Positions 2,874 to 32,717 of a stretch of 32,846 nt of DNA are shown here, piece after piece. The notes under the pieces were generated by a model that was given only the letters and a program-made list of their open reading frames with translations, was not told the DNA's origin and did no database searches. Location of the stretch: assembly GCA_947589225.1 (NCBI GenBank), contig CANQBC010000024.1:1-32846 (forward strand). Direction: 5' to 3'. How positions within the stretch are numbered: position 1 is the stretch's first letter; each line of letters begins with the position of its first letter. Origin of the DNA: an uncultured Oscillospiraceae bacterium. GTDB lineage: Bacteria; Bacillota; Clostridia; Oscillospirales; Oscillospiraceae. The translations under genes and the position numbers were made by a program.

Positions 2874-2909
2874 TGGTGGACACGACTCACTGGTAAACGA
2901 ACACCTCAC
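2874..2909. other. attL: left end of the integrated element
   Basis: The core TGGTGGA at 2874-2880 is followed, 11 bases further in, by the arm GGTAAACGAACACCTCAC (2892-2909). The arm overlaps the stop codon of the serine recombinase (2906-2908). The core repeats directly at 32772-32778, and the arm is repeated in inverted orientation at 32747-32764 with 16 of 18 identities. This is the layout expected when a serine recombinase splits a dyad-symmetric attP. Confidence 0.8.
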
Positions 2910-4546
2910 GGGAAAAAATCGGGGGATTCCCCCTTTTCGTTTTTGTCAGATTCACCGAGCAGGCTTTCACGCATTTTGATGGTGGCTTCTGTCGGCGCCT
3001 CCCGATATTCCCCGAGCATGGATTCTATGGTCCTGCTGTTCGCAATCAACTCACGCATTTCCTCAAAGGGCAGCTCACGCCGGTCATCGGAGTAATGGAA
3101 TGTTATCACCAGCCTGTCGGGGTAGACATAGATTTTGTCGATCAGCCCGTCCAACAACCGCTGCCGCGTGTCCGGGTCATTGAGGTCCCCAACGAAGCTG
3201 TCCAGAAATCGGAGAATATCGCTCTGCTTCAAATCGAACTTTCTCCGGTTCTGTTCCGCCAGGAGCGCGTCGTTCAACATGCTTTTCTGGCTTTCCAGGA
3301 CATTCATCTGCTCCGCCATCGTATCGCCGAAAATGCCCTTCTCAATCGCTTTGATGATGTTGGCGAGCTTGCCATCGACTTCTTTCAGCCGGGCCTTTAA
3401 CGATGCCGCATAGCTCCCGTTATCGTCATTCTGGCGCTTGTGATATTCATAGCAGGCATCGGAAATGATGATACGGTATACTGGGTCATGGAGCAGGTCA
3501 TACAGAACATACAGGACAATTTGCTCCATAAGCTCCTTGCGCTGGTTTTTCAGAGTGCAGGTGTGCTTCGCGTGGTTGATGCAGGAGTAGTAATAATATA
3601 ATTTCCCTTTTCTGTTGGTGCCGCTGATGCCGTGTATAGTACCGCCGCAAAGACCGCAGAAAATTTTCCCTGACAGCCAGTAGTCCTCTATCGCAGCCTC
3701 GGGGTGGATTTTCTTGATCGCGCCCCTGCCGCCGTACTTGTTGGCCTCCAGCTTCGCCTGTGCCGTCAGAAACACCTCGTCATCAACCAAACGGGGCATC
3801 CCACCCGGTATCACGACCGTTCCGTACCTGTATTCCCCAATGTACGCCCGGTTCATCAGAATGTTGCGTAGCGAGTTGACGGTAAATCGGTTTCCCCGGA
3901 CCGTCCGCAGGCCCGCGCCGTTCAGACCGTCACAAATCTTTTGCATCGGTACTCCCTCGGCGTACTCCTGGAAGATACGCCGCACAACGGGTGCCGTATC
4001 GTCGTCGATCTCATATTGCTGGTCCGGCTGGCCTTTGTAGCCCAGCATTTTGATACCGTTATACAGGGCGTTCTCGGCGTTGTAGGCCAGGCCGCGCATG
4101 ACGTTCTTCCGGTGCGACACAACAAACGACGCCGCCATGGCCTCATAGATGCTCTCCATCAGGATCTGCGTAGCTTCATCGTCGTCCGGGATGGATTCCG
4201 CGACGTAGGAGATCTTGACGCCGCACTCCCGGAGCCGCTTTTTTGCGAGGACAGAGTCGATCCTGTCACGGGAGAGGCGGTCTGTCTTCCACAGAATCAG
4301 ATAGGCCGGACGCAACTTCTCCACTTCATACAACATCTGCTGGAATTGCGGACGGTCCTCGCTGGTGCCGGAAATGGCGTGATCCTCATACTCCTTGATG
4401 ATGTGGTATCCGTGGGCCTTGGCGTAATCATGTGCCGCCTCGCGCTGCTGGTCGATGCTGACATCGCGCTGCGCGCCGGAGCTGTACCGGTAGTAGCAGA
4501 TGGCGTTGTTGCCGGGATTCTGTGTGAACCTCTTGGCCGCCCCCAT
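2906..4546 (-). CDS. Large serine recombinase (integrase of the element)
   Basis: 546 aa; the ATG at 4546 follows AAAGGAG. The N-terminal resolvase domain (about 14-160) has the catalytic Ser22 in YYRYSSGAQ, the SIDQQ block and the active-site arginines in KTDRLSRDR. A recombinase domain follows (about 180-290, with GYKG and GLRTVRGNRFTVNSLRNIL). A zinc ribbon comes next (about 320-360: CGLCGG, then CINHAKHTC), then a coiled coil (about 385-450) and a C-terminal tail. Length and order match large serine integrases of clostridial conjugative elements. It catalyses site-specific integration and excision, normally needing a separate directionality factor for excision; none was recognised here. 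It is the leftmost gene and ends inside attL. It has its own promoter at 4588-4616. Confidence 0.95.
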   Translation of the reverse strand: MGAAKRFTQNPGNNAICYYRYSSGAQRDVSIDQQREAAHDYAKAHGYHIIKEYEDHAISGTSEDRPQFQQMLYEVEKLRPAYLILWKTDRLSRDRIDSVLAKKRLRECGVKISYVAESIPDDDEATQILMESIYEAMAASFVVSHRKNVMRGLAYNAENALYNGIKMLGYKGQPDQQYEIDDDTAPVVRRIFQEYAEGVPMQKICDGLNGAGLRTVRGNRFTVNSLRNILMNRAYIGEYRYGTVVIPGGMPRLVDDEVFLTAQAKLEANKYGGRGAIKKIHPEAAIEDYWLSGKIFCGLCGGTIHGISGTNRKGKLYYYYSCINHAKHTCTLKNQRKELMEQIVLYVLYDLLHDPVYRIIISDACYEYHKRQNDDNGSYAASLKARLKEVDGKLANIIKAIEKGIFGDTMAEQMNVLESQKSMLNDALLAEQNRRKFDLKQSDILRFLDSFVGDLNDPDTRQRLLDGLIDKIYVYPDRLVITFHYSDDRRELPFEEMRELIANSRTIESMLGEYREAPTEATIKMRESLLGESDKNEKGESPDFFP

Positions 4547-16231: not shown

Positions 16232-17255
16232 TGTGATTTCCTCCATTACAATATATTTTGGTTGGGGGCACGGTAAGTGCTCCTTATTTGACACCATATT
16301 AGCACGATCGTGACGATTTAGCAATGGAGGGGCAGCAGCGTGGCGTCTTATTTGGGCACGTCCCTGACGTGCCCAAGCGCAGCCTATTATTTGGGTACGT
16401 CCCAGACGAAGTGGATTAAATGTGAATTATTTTGTGAATTTTTTGTAAATTTTTTGTCTGCCTTAGAGTTGCGTAATCCGGCGAGACAGTAAAGCGACGA
16501 AGCTCCAGGCACCCCCGGAACCGCGTCAGCGGTTCCGGGGGCGGTCGCCTCTGGCGACCGTAAGGGCCCGAGCGCAGCGAGGGCGGACCCGCGTCAGCGG
16601 GTCCGGGCGGTCGGCGGAGCCGACCACATCCCCCGGGACGGCCGCGTGAGCGGTCGAACCGGGGGATGTGTCACGCCCCCTTATGCCCTTTTCGTTTAGA
16701 GGATAAACAAAATAGAGGATCTGAAAATTCTAATATAATGTAAAAATCTTTACACTTTTTGAAATTACTAAAAATCTTGAGATCGCTTAAAATTTTCAAA
16801 AAACTTAAAAAGAGTGGAAAAAGTGTAGAAATCTTAGGAAAAGTTTTTAACGAAAAATGGGCCGGCGGTGTGTCACCTTGAAAATTGCTAACAAAATGCT
16901 TTTGGGGCGCTGAATTGGCCGTCCCAGCCCCGTCCCGGGCCTAGCGCCGCGAGGCGGCGGGCCCGGTGAGACTCATTATGGTCGGTGACCGTCCATAGAT
17001 GAAGCACCGTTCGCTTCGAAAATTGGGCTGGATTTGAGGCGACAGTGGGCTCGCGCAACGGGGCGGCACCGTGAGGCGGCGTCCCGTTGCGCGAGTGTAT
17101 GGCCCATCATGGGCCATTGACAGCGCGTGGCTGGGCTGAGCATGGAATGGGCTGGCGGTCCTGGAATATGGTCCATGACCGACCATATACCAACGATCTG
17201 AATCGTTCCGGTCCGACGGTCTTGGATTATGGTCTATACATAAACGATAGAGTAT
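16232..17255. other. Hairpin-rich gene-free region with TATGGTC palindromes
   Basis: No convincing gene on either strand. It holds a 17-bp direct repeat TTATTTGGGYACGTCCC (16348-16364, 16387-16403). Next is a run of hairpins at 16512-16669, then an AT-rich stretch with two TGTAA-type boxes (about 16738-16760 and 16818-16840). Further right are GC hairpins at 16936-16965 and 17050-17095 (13-bp perfect arms). Palindromes of the form TATGGTC...GACCATA lie at 16976-16996 and 17165-17187, with a further half-site near 17228. Such a mix of structured DNA and AT-rich sequence is seen at replication or transfer origins, but nothing here proves that function. Confidence 0.6.
16512..16669. repeat. Cluster of consecutive GC-rich hairpins
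   Basis: Consecutive inverted repeats: 16512-16541 (13-bp perfect stem, GTCA loop), 16542-16560 (CGGTCGC/GCGACCG), 16566-16584 (short), 16585-16604 (GGACCCGC/GCGGGTCC, GTCA loop), 16609-16625 (GGTCGGC/GCCGACC) and 16626-16669 (ACATCCCCCGG/CCGGGGGATGT around an inner hairpin). The GCGTCAGCG stem-loop top recurs at 15327 and 19338. It may be a REP-like repeat family or a structured RNA. Confidence 0.7.
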
Positions 17256-17730: not shown

Positions 17731-19245
17731 TTACTTGGTGTGGTAGGCTGTCGTGACGACGTCCGCATATGTGTCGAAAGTGATTACATCAACGTCGTAT
17801 TTACCAGACCAATTGTAGTCTACATCGGAGACGTAGAAGTTGGAGCAACCGACGTATCCGAATTCAGGGTCTGTCATGGTCTCATAATGGCCTTTGGACG
17901 AATAGTAGTTAAGCGCAGCGTCAAATACGCTTTCCCTGCCAGCATAGTGCCCCACAGTACATTTGTTTTCACAATATGCATCTATATAGAGTGCATCCAT
18001 ATAGTCGTAAAGTTCACCTGTGTCGGCCATGTGATACATTCCGTCATGTTCGTCCCAACCTTCGGTACAGTCCATATAAGCCCTGTAGTTGGCAAGGGCG
18101 GCCATTTCCGAGTCGAATTCTACGGTTTCTACGTTGGCTCTGGTACGGTACTTGTTTACTTCTTCGAGTTCTTTGGCCTGCATATACGTGAGTTCCTGAG
18201 TGAGCTGCTTCTTGTAGGAACCGGTGGTTTTGACGCCGGACTCGGTGTCCTGGTGAAGCAGGTAGTACATGTAGTAGCACTCGTAATTGTCGCCAAAAGC
18301 CTTGCGGAGAGATTCGTCACAGTTGTCCATATAGGCGGCCACGTTAAAATCCTTGGAACCCTGGCGGCCCTCGTGGACACCGACGGTCTGGAAGTGCTTC
18401 AAGAGCAGCGCGTCGTCATTGTGATACTGGACAGCGAGCATCGGGAACGCAGCCTTGTAGTAATCCGCGTCGAATACCAGAGACCAGTCAACAGCGGCGA
18501 CGTAGGAGTTATAATCTTTGCCATAATCCCAGGTCACGTCGTAAGGATTGCCGTGGTTCTTTTCGCCGTCGAAGATGAAGACGAGGCATTCGTTTTTGTT
18601 TTTTTGAACAGTGGCTTCCTTGCCGCCAAGAGCGGCGATGGCTTCGACGGAACCGAATTTCGTTTTAGGGTCAACGTAGTCTTCACCATTCAGGTATGCC
18701 TGATATTCGTCACCATATTCTCTCTCGTAATACTCTACGATCTCGCTGCGTCTTTCATCTGTGAATTCGGCCCATTTCTCGTCCCATCTGGCGCGACCCA
18801 CATCATCACATTTGGTGTCAATGTACCACTGGATGATGGGCGGATACTCGATGGATTCGACTTCATCCGTGCCATCGGCGTCCCCGGTAGGGGCGGGCGT
18901 TTCGGACTCTGTCCCGTCTTCCCCGGCATCGTCGGCATCATCGGCATCGCCGGTATCTCCGGTATCCCCAGTGTCCCCAGTATCTCCGGTATCGTCGGCA
19001 TCATCGGCATCGTCGGTATCTCCGGCATCCCCAGTATCTCCGGTATCGTCGGCATCATCAGTATCCCCGGTATCTTCGGCTTCCGTGTCACCAGGATCAT
19101 CCGTCGTCGAAGTGTCGCTGTCCCCAGCATACTCGGTCTGGGCGACGGGATCGGCCGTCGGAGCGTCCTCCGTATAGTTTTCACCACAACCGGCGAGCGT
19201 GACAGTCATCAGGATGGCGGCCAGAACAACTACATAATATTTCAT
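17731..19245 (-). CDS. Surface lipoprotein with Asp/Thr/Gly-rich stalk and CAP-like domain
   Basis: 504 aa, starting MKYYVVVLAAILMTVTLAGC; the ATG at 19245 has GGAG six bases upstream, and a start four codons earlier is possible. The lipobox LAGC gives Cys20 as the lipid-modified residue, so the protein is anchored on the outer face of the membrane. Residues ~45-125 are a low-complexity stalk of DDADDTGDTGD-type repeats. A middle region (about 240-320) has the repeat type found in clostridial surface proteins (FDADYYKAAFPML, KHFQTVGVHEGRQGS). The C-terminal ~130 residues resemble a CAP/SCP-like domain (EVNKYRTRANVETVEFDSEM; YAGRESVFDAALNYYSSKG). The canonical CAP histidines are not all obvious. 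It may mediate contact with other cells or surfaces. Confidence 0.75.
   Translation of the reverse strand: MKYYVVVLAAILMTVTLAGCGENYTEDAPTADPVAQTEYAGDSDTSTTDDPGDTEAEDTGDTDDADDTGDTGDAGDTDDADDADDTGDTGDTGDTGDTGDADDADDAGEDGTESETPAPTGDADGTDEVESIEYPPIIQWYIDTKCDDVGRARWDEKWAEFTDERRSEIVEYYEREYGDEYQAYLNGEDYVDPKTKFGSVEAIAALGGKEATVQKNKNECLVFIFDGEKNHGNPYDVTWDYGKDYNSYVAAVDWSLVFDADYYKAAFPMLAVQYHNDDALLLKHFQTVGVHEGRQGSKDFNVAAYMDNCDESLRKAFGDNYECYYMYYLLHQDTESGVKTTGSYKKQLTQELTYMQAKELEEVNKYRTRANVETVEFDSEMAALANYRAYMDCTEGWDEHDGMYHMADTGELYDYMDALYIDAYCENKCTVGHYAGRESVFDAALNYYSSKGHYETMTDPEFGYVGCSNFYVSDVDYNWSGKYDVDVITFDTYADVVTTAYHTK
18975..19059. repeat. 31-bp direct repeat within the lipoprotein stalk
   Basis: Two identical 31-bp copies (18975-19005 and 19029-19059), offset by 54 bases (18 codons), inside a longer degenerate array of 6- and 9-base units coding DDA, DTG and GDT. 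Because all units are multiples of three, slippage would change stalk length without breaking the frame. Confidence 0.8.
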
Positions 19246-19977
19246 CAGTTTCTCCATAACCCGTTTATCCCTTTCTATGTGATGAAGTTTCCAGGAGCTC
19301 TTTCCTTGACTCCCTCACTTTCTTTGCACGGGTGCGGGGCGCGTCAGCGAACCCGCGCCCGTGTCGGAGTACCGCAGTCTGCCGGGCTGTCGTGTCTGGT
19401 TGGAGCGGTTCTGGCTGCCAAAACCGAAAAATCGGCCGGTGACAAACGTTACATTTCGGTACAGATTTTGACCCATGTGTTTTATATAAAAATCGTAAAA
19501 AGTGTAAGAATCATTACAGTTTTCTGTTGGAATCTTTGAAAAATGGACCTGCATTTTTTTGAAGGGGTCTTCGACCCTGAAAATGGAAACGTTACAAGAA
19601 AGTGCTGAAGATTTCTACAGTTTTTGCATTTATGTTTTCAACTCCGTTACACGACGTTACACGTGTGTCACCAAAAACTGTAGAAATCCTTACATAAATT
19701 TTTTTGTAACGTTTGTAACGTTAAAATTAGTATTATATACGCGCATGAGAAAAACTCATATAAAGGGTCTTAAAAAACTCCGTTACAGACGTTACAAAAA
19801 AATTTCTGCTATAATTCTTACAGTTTTTCGAAAATTTTTGTAACGGCGTGTAACGCGAGAACGTTACAAACTAAAAAAGTGCAAGAACTCTTACACATTC
19901 TTGTAACGTTCATTTTTGACGCTCGGAAAATGGGCTTAAAAAATGCAAGTGTGGTTTTACGGTTACGATACTTCGGC
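19246..19977. other. Gene-free region with an ordered array of CGTTAC/GTAACG motifs
   Basis: No gene fits here; the ORF at 19559-19843 has no ribosome site and is made of the repeats. A GC hairpin lies at 19327-19363. From 19447 to 19908 there are twelve CGTTAC or GTAACG hexamers: 19447, 19590, 19645, 19655, 19706, 19715, 19781, 19790, 19840, 19850, 19862 and 19903. Eight form pairs 9 or 10 bases apart, about one helical turn. Between oppositely oriented motifs lie TGTAA-N6-TTACA-like boxes. An extended -10 (TGCTATAAT, 19806-19814) points to the right. It could be an origin of replication, a partition site or a multi-operator control region. Confidence 0.7.
19447..19908. repeat. Iteron-like array, 12 copies of CGTTAC/GTAACG
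   Basis: Forward pairs (19645/19655 and 19781/19790) are each followed by a reverse pair (19706/19715 and 19840/19850), and a box related to CTGTAGAAATCCTTACA sits between the arms. A third unit uses single motifs (19862 and 19903) around a box at 19879-19896. The arrangement repeats as [CGTTAC]-box-[GTAACG], so it is modular rather than random. Confidence 0.8.
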
Positions 19978-20985
19978 TCATAATCCCAATAATTGCTTCT
20001 TCTTCGCGTCGTACTCCTCCTGCGTGATTGCGCCGGCGTCCAGCAGACCTTTGTATTTCATGATCTCGTCCGTAGCGGACACGGCGGAGGCGGGAGCAGA
20101 ATCAGATCTGGACTCTGGCATCGGCGCAGGTTCAGACCCTGGCGCGGATCCCGTTGCCCACTGGGATTGGTTCTGAGCCTTGATGTGGGCCAGGGCCTCC
20201 AGTATCTGCCTGACCGTGGACCTGGCTACGTCCTCCTCAATGCTTACGATTTCGATGCCGTCCGTCAGACGCTCAGGATACTTATACAGGATCTGGTGAA
20301 TCGTCGAGAGGTGGGCACCCTGTAGAGAGATGCCCACGCCGATGGTGGCCCGGAGAACCTTGGATACGGACCGCTCACTGCCCGTCATGGCCCCGACGAT
20401 GGCCCCCGCGCCGCCGAACAGAGCCCCGCCCACGGCGGCACGGGCCAGACCTCCCTTCCGAACACCCTCCTTGGTCTCAATCTCGTCGATGGGCCAGAAG
20501 TCCATGAGGTTGGCAAAGTCAAATAGATCCTTCTCCGGCACTTCGGACAAATCAAACATGGGACTGGTGGCGCTCCCCACACAAAAGAGCCGGTGCTCCT
20601 GGTCGATGCTCAGCAGCGGCCCGTCCCAACCACGGCCAATATTGATGGTGGGCTTAAAAGTCTCGGCCAGGGCGATGCGCCGATCGATTTGCTCCCGGTT
20701 GAACACACTCCAGGCTCGCTTGGTTACCCGCCCCATAAGGGTCGCTTTCCGGCACTTCGGGCAGAGGAAATCCCCACCGGCCAGGGAGACCTTTCCGTCC
20801 CCCCGCTGAGAGATTCTGACGCCGCAGTGGGCGCAGGGCTTGGCCTCTCCAAATAAGAGCCGCTCCGCAGTACCTGCCGGGGCTACGGCATTATTCCTGC
20901 TCAGGATCTGCATCACCGGTGTGCCACAGCTGCGGCAAAACTGGTCTCCCTCGGGGATCACGGCTCCGCATTTTGAACAATACAT
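19978..20985 (-). CDS. Zinc-ribbon protein with C-terminal SHOCT domain, 335 aa
   Basis: Starts MYCSKCGAVIPEGDQFCRSC at 20985; GGGAGG lies 11 bases upstream, and a GTG four codons earlier overlaps that site. The N-terminal zinc ribbon (CSKCG, CRSCG) is followed by a second ribbon at about 50-80 (CAHCG, CPKCR), as in DUF4428-type proteins. The middle has a glycine-rich stretch (AAVGGALFGGAGAIVGAM, about 185-205) that could pack against or enter a membrane. The last ~30 residues are a SHOCT domain (MKYKGLLDAGAITQEEYDAK). SHOCT proteins are common in mobile elements and often oligomerise; the role is unknown. It lies 21 bases downstream of two short zinc-ribbon membrane genes with the same N-terminus type. 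Confidence 0.8.
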   Translation of the reverse strand: MYCSKCGAVIPEGDQFCRSCGTPVMQILSRNNAVAPAGTAERLLFGEAKPCAHCGVRISQRGDGKVSLAGGDFLCPKCRKATLMGRVTKRAWSVFNREQIDRRIALAETFKPTINIGRGWDGPLLSIDQEHRLFCVGSATSPMFDLSEVPEKDLFDFANLMDFWPIDEIETKEGVRKGGLARAAVGGALFGGAGAIVGAMTGSERSVSKVLRATIGVGISLQGAHLSTIHQILYKYPERLTDGIEIVSIEEDVARSTVRQILEALAHIKAQNQSQWATGSAPGSEPAPMPESRSDSAPASAVSATDEIMKYKGLLDAGAITQEEYDAKKKQLLGL

Positions 20986-21006
20986 ATTGTTCCACACCTC
21001 CCTTGC

Positions 21007-21396
21007 TTACCGCCGCCTGCCTTTGAACATGCCAATCAGGAACATAATAAAAACCACGGCGCATGGAATAGCCAGAATGATAAAGATTGTATAAGACGCT
21101 GTCGGAAAATACGCAAAGAGCAACATCAATACCGCCACGAAGGCAATCGAAGGGAGCCAAACCGTCAAAAAGGTTGATTTCTTCGTTGACGAGCTTCCGC
21201 TGCTTGGAGCCGGAGCCTGCTGGGGCTGGCCCTGGACAGGTCCCTGCTGGTAGGACTGCCCCTGGTAGGGCCCCTGTTGGTACGGCTGATAGGGCCCGGG
21301 ACCGGCCTGGGTCGGGGCCTGCTGGAACGTGGCCCCGCAGGAGGGGCAGGACGTGGACCCGTCGGGGATCTGTTTTCCGCATTTAGGGCAATACAT
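21007..21396 (-). CDS. Zinc-ribbon membrane protein, 129 aa (copy 2)
   Basis: Starts MYCPKCGKQIPDGSTSCPSC at 21396 after AAAGGAG. The zinc ribbon (about 1-25) is followed by a Gly/Pro/Tyr/Gln-rich stretch (about 26-65, repeats like GPYQGQSYQQ), then two membrane helices (about 77-95 and 100-122) and a GRRR tail. It would sit in the membrane with the ribbon and Gln-rich tail on one side. The first 40 residues are almost identical to the next gene upstream, so the pair arose by tandem duplication. Function is unknown. Confidence 0.75.
   Translation of the reverse strand: MYCPKCGKQIPDGSTSCPSCGATFQQAPTQAGPGPYQPYQQGPYQGQSYQQGPVQGQPQQAPAPSSGSSSTKKSTFLTVWLPSIAFVAVLMLLFAYFPTASYTIFIILAIPCAVVFIMFLIGMFKGRRR
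21272..21396. repeat. 125-bp direct repeat, copy at the second zinc-ribbon gene
   Basis: Matches 21692-21816 at an offset of exactly 420 bases, with six differences. It covers the start codon, zinc ribbon and first Gln-rich repeats of both genes. Confidence 0.85.
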
Positions 21397-21426
21397 AAGC
21401 CATTTTCTCCTTTCAAGGCAGTCTGG

Positions 21427-21816
21427 TCACTTTTTCTTCATCCTCACTATATTAACAATACTCAAGACCAGTACTGGGATACAGCACAGTAAGCCCAAGA
21501 TACCACCCCCTAGAAGCATCCCCAGCAATGCAAGTCCAATAGTCAACCAGTAGATCAACCCAAAGATAGGTTTCTTGGACTCGCCGCCATTCCCGGTGGA
21601 TTGGGTCTGCTGGGATTGCCCCTGGTAGGGCCCCTGCTGGTAGGGCTGTCCCTGGACAGGTCCCTGCTGGTAGGGCTGACCCTGAGCGGGGCCCTGTTGG
21701 TACGGCTGATAGGGCCCGGGACCGGCCTGGGTCGGGGTCTGCTGGAACGTGGCACCACAGGAAGGGCAGGACGTGGACCCGTCAGGGATCTGTTTTCCGC
21801 ATTTAGGACAATACAT
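21427..21816 (-). CDS. Zinc-ribbon membrane protein, 129 aa (copy 1)
   Basis: Starts MYCPKCGKQIPDGSTSCPSC at 21816 after AAAGGAG. It has the same plan as copy 2: zinc ribbon, Gln/Pro/Tyr/Gly repeats (GPVQGQPYQQGPYQGQSQQ), then a hydrophobic C-terminus of two helices (IYWLTIGLALLGMLLGGGIL and LCCIPVLVLSIVNIV). The membrane segments differ strongly from copy 2 while the N-termini match, so the C-terminal parts have diverged or been exchanged. It is the first gene of a three-gene unit read from the promoter at 21899-21927, opposite the XRE regulator. Confidence 0.75.
   Translation of the reverse strand: MYCPKCGKQIPDGSTSCPSCGATFQQTPTQAGPGPYQPYQQGPAQGQPYQQGPVQGQPYQQGPYQGQSQQTQSTGNGGESKKPIFGLIYWLTIGLALLGMLLGGGILGLLCCIPVLVLSIVNIVRMKKK
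21692..21816. repeat. 125-bp direct repeat, copy at the first zinc-ribbon gene
   Basis: Partner of 21272-21396 (119 of 125 bases identical). The few differences are mostly at third codon positions, which suggests selection on the protein as well as recent duplication. Confidence 0.85.
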
Positions 21817-21898
21817 GTTGATTTCTCCTTTTCTCGAAATTTAATATTTTTTACAAAGCGTCTCCCTCGCGGACTTTTTGCATATCCGCACAAAATAC

Positions 21899-21936
21899 AT
21901 CATAGCACAAATGCAATAACAATACAAGATATATCT
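21899..21936 (-). promoter_or_regulatory. Promoter of the zinc-ribbon operon with adjacent palindrome
   Basis: On the minus strand, TTGTAT (complement of 21922-21927), a 17-base spacer and TATGAT (complement of 21899-21904). The palindrome AGATATATCT (21927-21936) touches the -35, and a related AGATATACAGAT lies near 21965-21976, just upstream of the XRE gene. These may be XRE binding sites controlling both directions. Confidence 0.65.
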
Positions 21937-22000
21937 AAAACATCTCTCACTTTGGACATAAAATAGATATACAGATAGTCACGTGGAAGGGGGTGGTGCC

Positions 22001-22333
22001 TTGGATACCCATGAGCGTTTACAGCAGCTGCTGCGCGAGCGCGGATGGACAGAGTACAAACTGTCAAAGGAGTGTGGGCTGGCCCAGTCCACGATCGGCA
22101 ATATATTTCGCAGAAATACGGTTCCGTCAATCGCCACACTGGAAACGATCTGCAAAGGATTTGGCATCACCTTGTCGCAGTTTTTTACGGATGAAAATCT
22201 CGTGGAGCTGAGCCCTGAATTGAAGGAGCTGTTCGACGCCTGGGTCTGCCTCAGGCCAAACCAGAAGAAAGCCGCCCTGCAAATGCTCAGGGCAATGAGC
22301 AATGAGGATGAGTGGGTGGGACCGTCCCTTTGA
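22001..22333 (+). CDS. XRE-family HTH transcription regulator
   Basis: 110 aa from a TTG at 22001, with GGGGGTGG just upstream; the frame is also open to a GTG at 21983. The helix-turn-helix is at about 5-60 (LLRERGWTEYKLSKECGLAQ, STIGNIFRRNTVPSIATLE), followed by the usual GFGITLSQFF segment and a short C-terminal helical part. It is the only recognised plus-strand gene of the element. It faces away from the zinc-ribbon operon and probably represses its own promoter and that operon through the AGATAT palindromes. A role in controlling transfer or excision is possible but not shown. Confidence 0.85.
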   Translation: MDTHERLQQLLRERGWTEYKLSKECGLAQSTIGNIFRRNTVPSIATLETICKGFGITLSQFFTDENLVELSPELKELFDAWVCLRPNQKKAALQMLRAMSNEDEWVGPSL

Positions 22334-22356
22334 TGGTATTCTTATTTCATTATGTT

Positions 22357-22397
22357 CAGGCCGCTTTTCGCTTTTTTGTGGTGCGAAAAGCGGCCTG
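22357..22397. terminator. Convergent hairpin between XRE and methylase-helicase genes
   Basis: Perfect 15-bp stem CAGGCCGCTTTTCGC with GCGAAAAGCGGCCTG around an 11-base loop, between two converging genes (stops at 22333 and 22405). The T runs are in the stem and loop rather than after it, so it is a strong hairpin with probable terminator function in both directions. Confidence 0.65.
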
Positions 22398-22404
22398 TTG
22401 TGTT

Positions 22405-32435: not shown

Positions 32436-32717
32436 CTATTTACTTTTGATGATTCCGAACGAGATAAACGCTGCGCGGATCGCCTCCGCCTTTTCATGCG
32501 TCAGCTCCGCGGCATACGGCCCATTGGGGCCTGGGGTGCCCTTGTGCTGGAGCTTGGCAAGCCCACAGAGGTCCTTGGTCCATGAGATGGCGAGATTGCT
32601 GACATGCAGGCCGTAGTTCTGCTTGACCCACGTCCGAATCTCCTTGTATGTGGCGCGTTTGGTCTGTAAATACGTTTCGCCCTCATAGTCGTCTATCTCG
32701 ACTATGAGGGCGAACAC
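32436..32717 (-). CDS. Small protein resembling the C-terminal extension of clostridial RlmD-type methyltransferases
   Basis: 93 aa if started at the GTG at 32717. The core, KRATYKEIRTWVKQNYGLHV then SNLAISWTKDLCGL and HEKAEAIRAAFISFGII, resembles the domain appended to some clostridial 23S rRNA methyltransferases and also found alone in mobile elements. It may bind nucleic acid. The start is uncertain: no ribosome site precedes the GTG, and the frame stays open to the right across attR. In the circular form it would stay open back to a GTG at 2909. The first ~12 codons lie in a perfect inverted repeat (32681-32715). Confidence 0.6.
   Translation of the reverse strand: MFALIVEIDDYEGETYLQTKRATYKEIRTWVKQNYGLHVSNLAISWTKDLCGLAKLQHKGTPGPNGPYAAELTHEKAEAIRAAFISFGIIKSK
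32681..32715. repeat. Perfect inverted repeat near the right end
   Basis: Arms CGCCCTCATAGTCG and CGACTATGAGGGCG surround a 5-8-base loop, just inside attR and overlapping the predicted start of the 93-aa gene. It could be an operator, an RNA hairpin that hides the start of translation, or a structured end of the element. Confidence 0.7.

Follow-up and report, generated by a model that had tools for sequence, protein, structure and literature searches.

A palindromic CGTTACA array in a mobile element of an uncultured Oscillospiraceae bacterium as a candidate iteron-type origin

What is the function of a non-coding interval that carries twelve copies of one short word, most of them in ordered pairs, within a mobile element of an uncultured Oscillospiraceae bacterium? 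The locus lies on a contig of 32,846 bases, which was analysed in its entirety (hereafter the window) and belongs to a genome of 2.4 Mb in 72 contigs. The mobile element has a serine recombinase gene at 2906-4546 and, according to family searches, also encodes PcfJ, PcfK, a TraG-type coupling protein, a 1899-aa SNF2-helicase-like protein, a Toprim primase-like protein and an SSB; PDB sequence searches with two core proteins gave no useful match. A tRNA-Val gene adjoins the element end in the window, and a related genome carries 95.8% identical DNA at this end, tRNA-Val included. The only match in the window to RNA families at gathering threshold was a tRNA at the contig end, with none in the array. 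Genes for zinc-ribbon proteins adjoin the array on one side and a gene for a CAP protein on the other, the latter starting 190 bases away.

17731-19257, reverse strand: neighbour gene, CAP-domain lipoprotein-like protein (lipoprotein signal assigned by eye), flanking the array and only putatively a member of it

An earlier note, made from the letters of the window, had described twelve CGTTAC/GTAACG hexamers in 462 bp, eight of them in pairs 9-10 bases apart with forward and reverse pairs alternating, and had judged this order far from random and not explained by any gene. The motif scan confirmed the twelve hexamers, found four others elsewhere in the 32.8-kb window and recovered the four pairs, which follow one another as FF-RR-FF-RR with spacings of 10, 9, 9 and 10 bases. 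Since an A follows all twelve hexamers, the repeated unit is CGTTACA. When the 462-bp region was shuffled 2000 times with its dinucleotides preserved, the hexamer occurred 0.53 times on average and four times at most; in 500 shuffles no hexamer containing two or more G/C exceeded seven copies, against the twelve observed. A gene within the array was ruled out, the longest open frame there having flat codon-position GC. The region has 33% GC compared with 58% for the window, and is the window's most AT-rich 400 bp. Within the draft assembly of this genome, heptamer or hexamer pairs occur in the array only.

19447-19908, no strand: non-coding array of twelve CGTTACA heptamers (motif count and shuffles)
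19447-19453, forward strand: single heptamer (motif scan)
19590-19596, forward strand: single heptamer (motif scan)
19645-19661, forward strand: heptamer pair, starts at 19645 and 19655, spacing 10 (motif scan)
19705-19720, reverse strand: heptamer pair, TGTAACG at 19705 and 19714, spacing 9 (motif scan)
19721-19780, no strand: AT-rich palindrome centre with no heptamer (sequence)
19781-19796, forward strand: heptamer pair, starts at 19781 and 19790, spacing 9 (motif scan)
19839-19855, reverse strand: heptamer pair, TGTAACG at 19839 and 19849, spacing 10 (motif scan)
19862-19868, forward strand: single heptamer (motif scan)
19902-19908, reverse strand: single heptamer (motif scan)

The alternating order of the pairs is part of one quasi-palindrome, which matches its own reverse complement at 67% (E 2.4e-15). 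Taken by themselves, the sites are less clearly mirror-symmetric: they form four mirrored pairs, a number reached in 46 of 2000 random placements that kept the pairs together. Folded as single-stranded DNA, the palindrome reaches -70.3 kcal/mol compared with -34.5 in shuffles (z -9.5). A TGTAA-N6-TTACA-like box had been reported for every interval, and the box scan bore this out in part: of the four boxes found, one is exact, two differ at one position and one differs at two, but the interval 19590-19645 has none except a two-mismatch match overlapping a heptamer, and in the central interval a two-mismatch match is all there is, and it is unconvincing. Two mirrored copies of the motif AAAAAATGCA lie in the outer flanks; the 8-base form of this flank word, AAAAATGC, lies near only 7 of the 112 viral arrays described below, so it is not a general feature. 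A second AT-rich block, separated from the array by the CAP gene, is approximately 65% similar to the right part of the array over 99 columns and includes the window's most AT-rich 60 bp (near 16.7 kb, outside the array). It holds an exact box at 16739 and no heptamer, and heptamers and boxes are therefore separable motifs.

19580-19916, no strand: quasi-palindrome with its centre near 19750 (self-match of the reverse complement; single-strand fold)
19503-19518, no strand: TGTAA-N6-TTACA palindromic box, exact (box scan)
19679-19694, no strand: same box, one mismatch (box scan)
19807-19822, no strand: same box, two mismatches (box scan)
19880-19895, no strand: same box, one mismatch (box scan)
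19547-19559, reverse strand: outer flank motif, mirror partner of 19938-19950 (motif scan)
19938-19950, forward strand: outer flank motif (motif scan)
16680-16860, no strand: second AT-rich non-coding block

A scan with the SNF2-like protein returned 194 relative loci, the best 80 of which were analysed, some of them ending at contig ends. One of these, L165 (contig G751:C36, from an uncultured Oscillospiraceae MAG), has the same element with the array and the adjoining CAP gene, and retains all 12 heptamers and all 11 spacings; the remaining 79 of the best 80 have at most three GTTACA sites per 450 bp. Beyond the array the cargo differs, with kinase, FHA, PP2C and trypsin-like genes in L165 and zinc-ribbon genes in the window. 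The two elements are about 7% diverged over 17 kb of aligned DNA. The high identity of the array is not decisive because coding DNA of the two elements also contains exact runs of such length, 356 and 380 bp compared with 330 bp in the array, and conservation was accordingly rejected as proof of function. As an observation on the elements themselves, the cargo swapped between these close relatives spans 19978-22400 of the window (zinc-ribbon/SHOCT) and 8127-15081 of L165 (Ser/Thr kinase-FHA-PP2C-trypsin-like).

19418-19961, no strand: non-coding block conserved in L165 (534 of 544 bases identical, no gaps); 19961 is the cargo-replacement edge

The earlier note had put forward the comparison of homologous elements as its check, and the outcome is split between L165, which keeps all motifs and spacings, and the more distant G275, which keeps a CAP homologue (approximately 67% identity) without the array. 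The genes CAP-365-470-Sel1-ClpP-TraG-376 of G275 stand in the window's order with 58-88% protein identity (Sel1 lower), and the zinc-ribbon genes before CAP are of the same broad type, with only 22 residues or short stretches matching the window. The 48.6-kb contig of G275 has no array and no core genes, only a distant relative of a small HTH-like protein of the window. The core is present in L239 as SSB-208-345-Toprim-SNF2-PcfK-PcfJ, with 54-77% protein identity outside SNF2, and the 25.6 kb examined of its 45-kb contig contain no comparable 7-mer array. Since the array is absent both from this locus with the core and from the G275 locus with the cargo, it belongs to neither and forms a third piece; to judge by these sequences, it seems to be a cis-acting unit that was acquired separately. 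No heptamer or hexamer pairs were found outside the array in the draft assembly of the related genome G751. Searches of phage and plasmid DNA with the array as query gave no match, and an order-wide search of 394 genomes gave just two matches outside its own genome, of 24-29 bases.

Facing CGTTACA dyads were found in at least 120 IMG/VR contigs. Among the matches listed, 44 of 120 CGTTACA pair loci had at least four heptamers in 400 bp, compared with 6/120 and 13/120 for two composition-matched control heptamers. The genes next to such clusters were then counted in a census drawn from 191 loci (120 pair-pattern loci and 71 of 111 new dyad loci, among the matches listed), 79 of which fell below the threshold of at least five GTTACA sites and were dropped, leaving 112; heptamer spacing in the viral loci is biased because they were fetched with spacings of 8-11. 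A labelled gene lies within 500 bp in 67 of the 112 loci, comprising 38 with a replication initiator or primase, 25 with TerS and 4 with TerL. The same labelled proteins lie near 5/120 and 6/120 control loci (11/240 together), a comparison which supports reading the arrays as origins, and near 17 of 74 CGTTACA loci with fewer than five sites.

Because many of the 112 loci are related, they were collapsed to 65 nucleotide lineages, of which 26 have a replication gene (5 of them resting solely on one class labelled by eye), 2 TerS and 2 TerL, with 35 having no labelled gene within 500 bp. The TerS association thus has very few lineages behind it and the replication association many. Class labels were passed from family-searched members to their BLAST cluster, and one class, L544, was assigned by eye from a single sequence; it covers 7 loci and provides the only label for 6 loci and 5 lineages. 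With a locus's own lineage omitted from the labels, 67/112 arrays and 31/65 lineages still had a labelled neighbour.

The families found in the searched members are DnaD-like replisome organisers, an O-like initiator, helicase-primases of the D5/DUF5906 and VapE types and zinc-ribbon primases, together with the TerS class (Terminase_2 in the members searched), whose median distance from the clusters in its 25 loci is 42 bp. The 86 family-searched proteins were hand-picked from or near 169 candidates, with known TerS frames replacing longer overlapping frames in L124, L065 and L074, and for this reason the 11 Terminase_2 matches among them are not an unbiased count and this family search is weaker as support for an origin. 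For the controls, 139 neighbours were chosen from 74 of the 240 loci, 122 being scanned first and 17 long ones afterwards. Portal, glycine-rich, large-terminase and tail families were the commonest near control sites, and no Terminase_2 or primase family was among the best 25 of 63 families in the 122 scanned, each of the other families matching at most one protein; the 17 long neighbours gave tail, capsid and other families and no primase family. Terminase_6N is no commoner near arrays (2/86) than near controls (3/122).

The viral arrays are also local AT maxima, with GC below the rest of the locus in 104 of 112, and 93% of them have a 60-bp stretch within the lowest 5% of GC in their locus, compared with 39% of random zones. 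ATATATA, CTATATA and AAACCCT-type words are enriched near the clusters. Similarity between the window array and the viral arrays beyond the motif is weak (best E 4e-4), and phage searches with the L523, L573 and L118 regions gave no match. In the lambda-O-like layout, the phage cluster lies inside the initiator gene. Listeria phage A500 carries CGTTACA heptamers, direct and facing, inside gp45, which at the DNA level shares 91% identity with the region of the replisome-organiser gene in L042, and this cluster would be the phage's origin. The window array shares both the heptamer and the two arrangements with the A500 cluster, but is intergenic and outside any initiator gene. In locus L140 (3498-4892), heptamer repeats are translated as a repetitive VTGVT and NACNACN tail, in a gene that is primase/AAA-like by eye and has no PHROGs match; repetitive tails of this kind may betray coding iterons.

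Facing dyads were absent from all 397 other sampled genomes of the phylum; they are present in two other genomes of the family found separately from that sample, outside which G351 and G184 lie. The pair pattern matched in 78 of 400 genomes, own included, and the sequence around the match was examined in 33 of the 77 others, two of which (G351 and G184) have at least six CGTTAC sites in 500 bp, forming clusters L035 and L036. The L035 array lies approximately 260 bp downstream of a Rep_OBD plasmid replication gene and also near a relaxase gene and tRNA-Ala. L036 is a diverged copy of L035 on a short contig; it adjoins tmRNA and SmpB sequence (by eye), and the gene upstream of its array is TetR-type (by eye), not rep. 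Overall identity between the two is 75%, with 6 of the 7 L035 sites aligning with the six of L036, and conservation stands out at these six heptamers, at a hairpin in the centre and at a TCAAAAAATGC block. The hairpin includes AAACCCTTGC, and AACCCTT/AAACCCT and CTATATA-type words are likewise enriched beside viral clusters. Relatives of the L035 Rep protein were found in three Lactococcus plasmid records (38% over a third of the query), with none in phages and none in 250 genomes; viral searches with the SHOCT and L035 small proteins returned nothing informative.

An iteron-type origin appears the most likely function of the window array because of the replication context of the viral clusters, the AT-richness, the phased and facing repeats and the mainly viral and mobile-element distribution. 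We tentatively favour, with confidence short of firm, a cis-acting initiator-binding site of the replication-origin type, or a derivative of one, which may have been captured from a phage or satellite. In this model, oligomers of an initiator would occupy the phased CGTTACA repeats, two complexes of opposite orientation would sit on the facing pairs, and AT-rich DNA between or beside these complexes would melt, so that copying would start, either of the excised circle itself or via the replication machinery of a helper. Two features of such origins are present, namely several phased short repeats (twelve heptamers, four pairs at 9-10) as putative initiator-binding sites and an adjoining AT-rich region. 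The earlier note had named an origin as one of three possible roles, and this suggestion gains from the heptamer clusters marking initiation loci in many unrelated phages, but family searches found no cognate replication-initiator family among the window proteins scanned. The absent initiator is the main weakness of this reading: as none was recognised in the element, we infer the role from context, and for the same reason the array is said to work like an origin and is not filed as a member of a family. The initiator may be an unrecognised protein, may be encoded outside the contig or may be supplied by a helper.

The closest known systems are the SaPI Rep and SCCmec Cch2 type origins, in which iterons lie downstream of a self-loading helicase gene (PMC7581432). 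The array resembles these in having short repeats within non-coding DNA of an integrated mobile element, and the phage CGTTACA clusters adjoin D5/VapE-type helicase-primases of the same broad kind. It differs in that the window has no recognised Rep or helicase of this kind and in its palindromic layout with two FF-RR modules, and its CGTTACA heptamer is unlike the AAGTG iteron given for Cch2 (PMC7581432).

The heptamer arrays adjoin phage replication proteins of no fewer than four unrelated classes, and TerS in some lineages. A bolder and unlikely extension is that CGTTACA is a portable initiation code read by a shared, unnamed host or mobile-element factor, which would make the window array a plug-in origin recognised in trans. 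No description of CGTTACA arrays at origins was found in the titles and abstract openings of a partly covered literature. If the origin reading is right, a short, countable DNA word would predict replication-initiation loci across unrelated phages, and origins could be found in integrative elements that lack a recognisable initiator; the question raised is why unrelated initiators would share one heptamer, and what reads it.

The alternative that survives best, although it is rather improbable, is the composite operator or promoter that the earlier note had also proposed, at which an element or host regulator would bind heptamer pairs and boxes and control the CAP gene or the whole cargo cassette. 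The array stays with the CAP gene while the opposite side is replaced, and the AT-rich block beyond that gene has the same box. Repeats in OmpR-type operators are about one helical turn apart, and OmpR/PhoB-type operators have half-sites at 10-11 bases and several targets per genome. The array has GTTACA-like half-sites which, where spaced at 10 bases, resemble OmpR sites, for which TGTWACAW is given (PMC3586657). Unlike such operators, the array includes spacings of 9 as well as 10, its pairs occur nowhere else in the host genome or in G751 (both draft assemblies), and facing dyads come chiefly from viral contigs. On the CAP strand a simple scan detected no sigma-70-like promoter, and the CAP homologue of G275 has no array upstream.

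It is distinctly unlikely that the array is a relic, that is, a captured fragment of a phage or satellite origin with no present role. The unrecognised cognate initiator and the absence of the array from relatives carrying either flank would fit such a fragment, but its heptamers and spacings are kept in full in the diverged relative L165, a point which counts for little given the similar exact runs in coding DNA. A packaging site, in which TerS reads the heptamers and the element mimics a helper phage cos/pac site, is more doubtful still. The proximity of TerS in the viral census would favour this, but its 25 loci collapse to two nucleotide lineages, no terminase family was found among the window proteins scanned, unlike what a terminase cos/pac site would lead one to look for, and neither host genome shows the other paired sites expected of a resident array-bearing phage.

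Very improbable is a role in single-stranded form, with the palindrome folding during transfer or replication and acting as a priming or loading site. The stable fold and the SSB and Toprim primase-like protein of the element point in this direction, but a fold follows from any inverted repeat regardless of function, the phased double-strand heptamers and the phage parallels suggest duplex binding, and the element core occurs elsewhere without the array. The partition site suggested in the earlier note is not supported, as no ParA/ParB-type family that would accompany a parS site was found among the window proteins scanned.

The small HTH-like protein of the window (32436-32717; HTH assigned by eye) was considered as the reader of the heptamers, its relatives adjoining the arrays in L035 and L036. 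This candidate was rejected because copies occur with no nearby array in G751, at L498 (84%) and L499 (80%, with an internal stop), and in G275 (51% over 53 residues). The protein adjoins the tRNA-Val end, and in L035, L036 and L499 its relatives are found close to tRNA or element ends, a placement that suggests a role in recombination for this group. At L499 (4755-9210, contig G751:C4) there is a small element with a recombinase of 79% DNA identity and a small HTH-like gene of 80%, in a layout as at the two ends of the window element, and the surrounding frames resemble an interrupted NUDIX-type gene (by eye).
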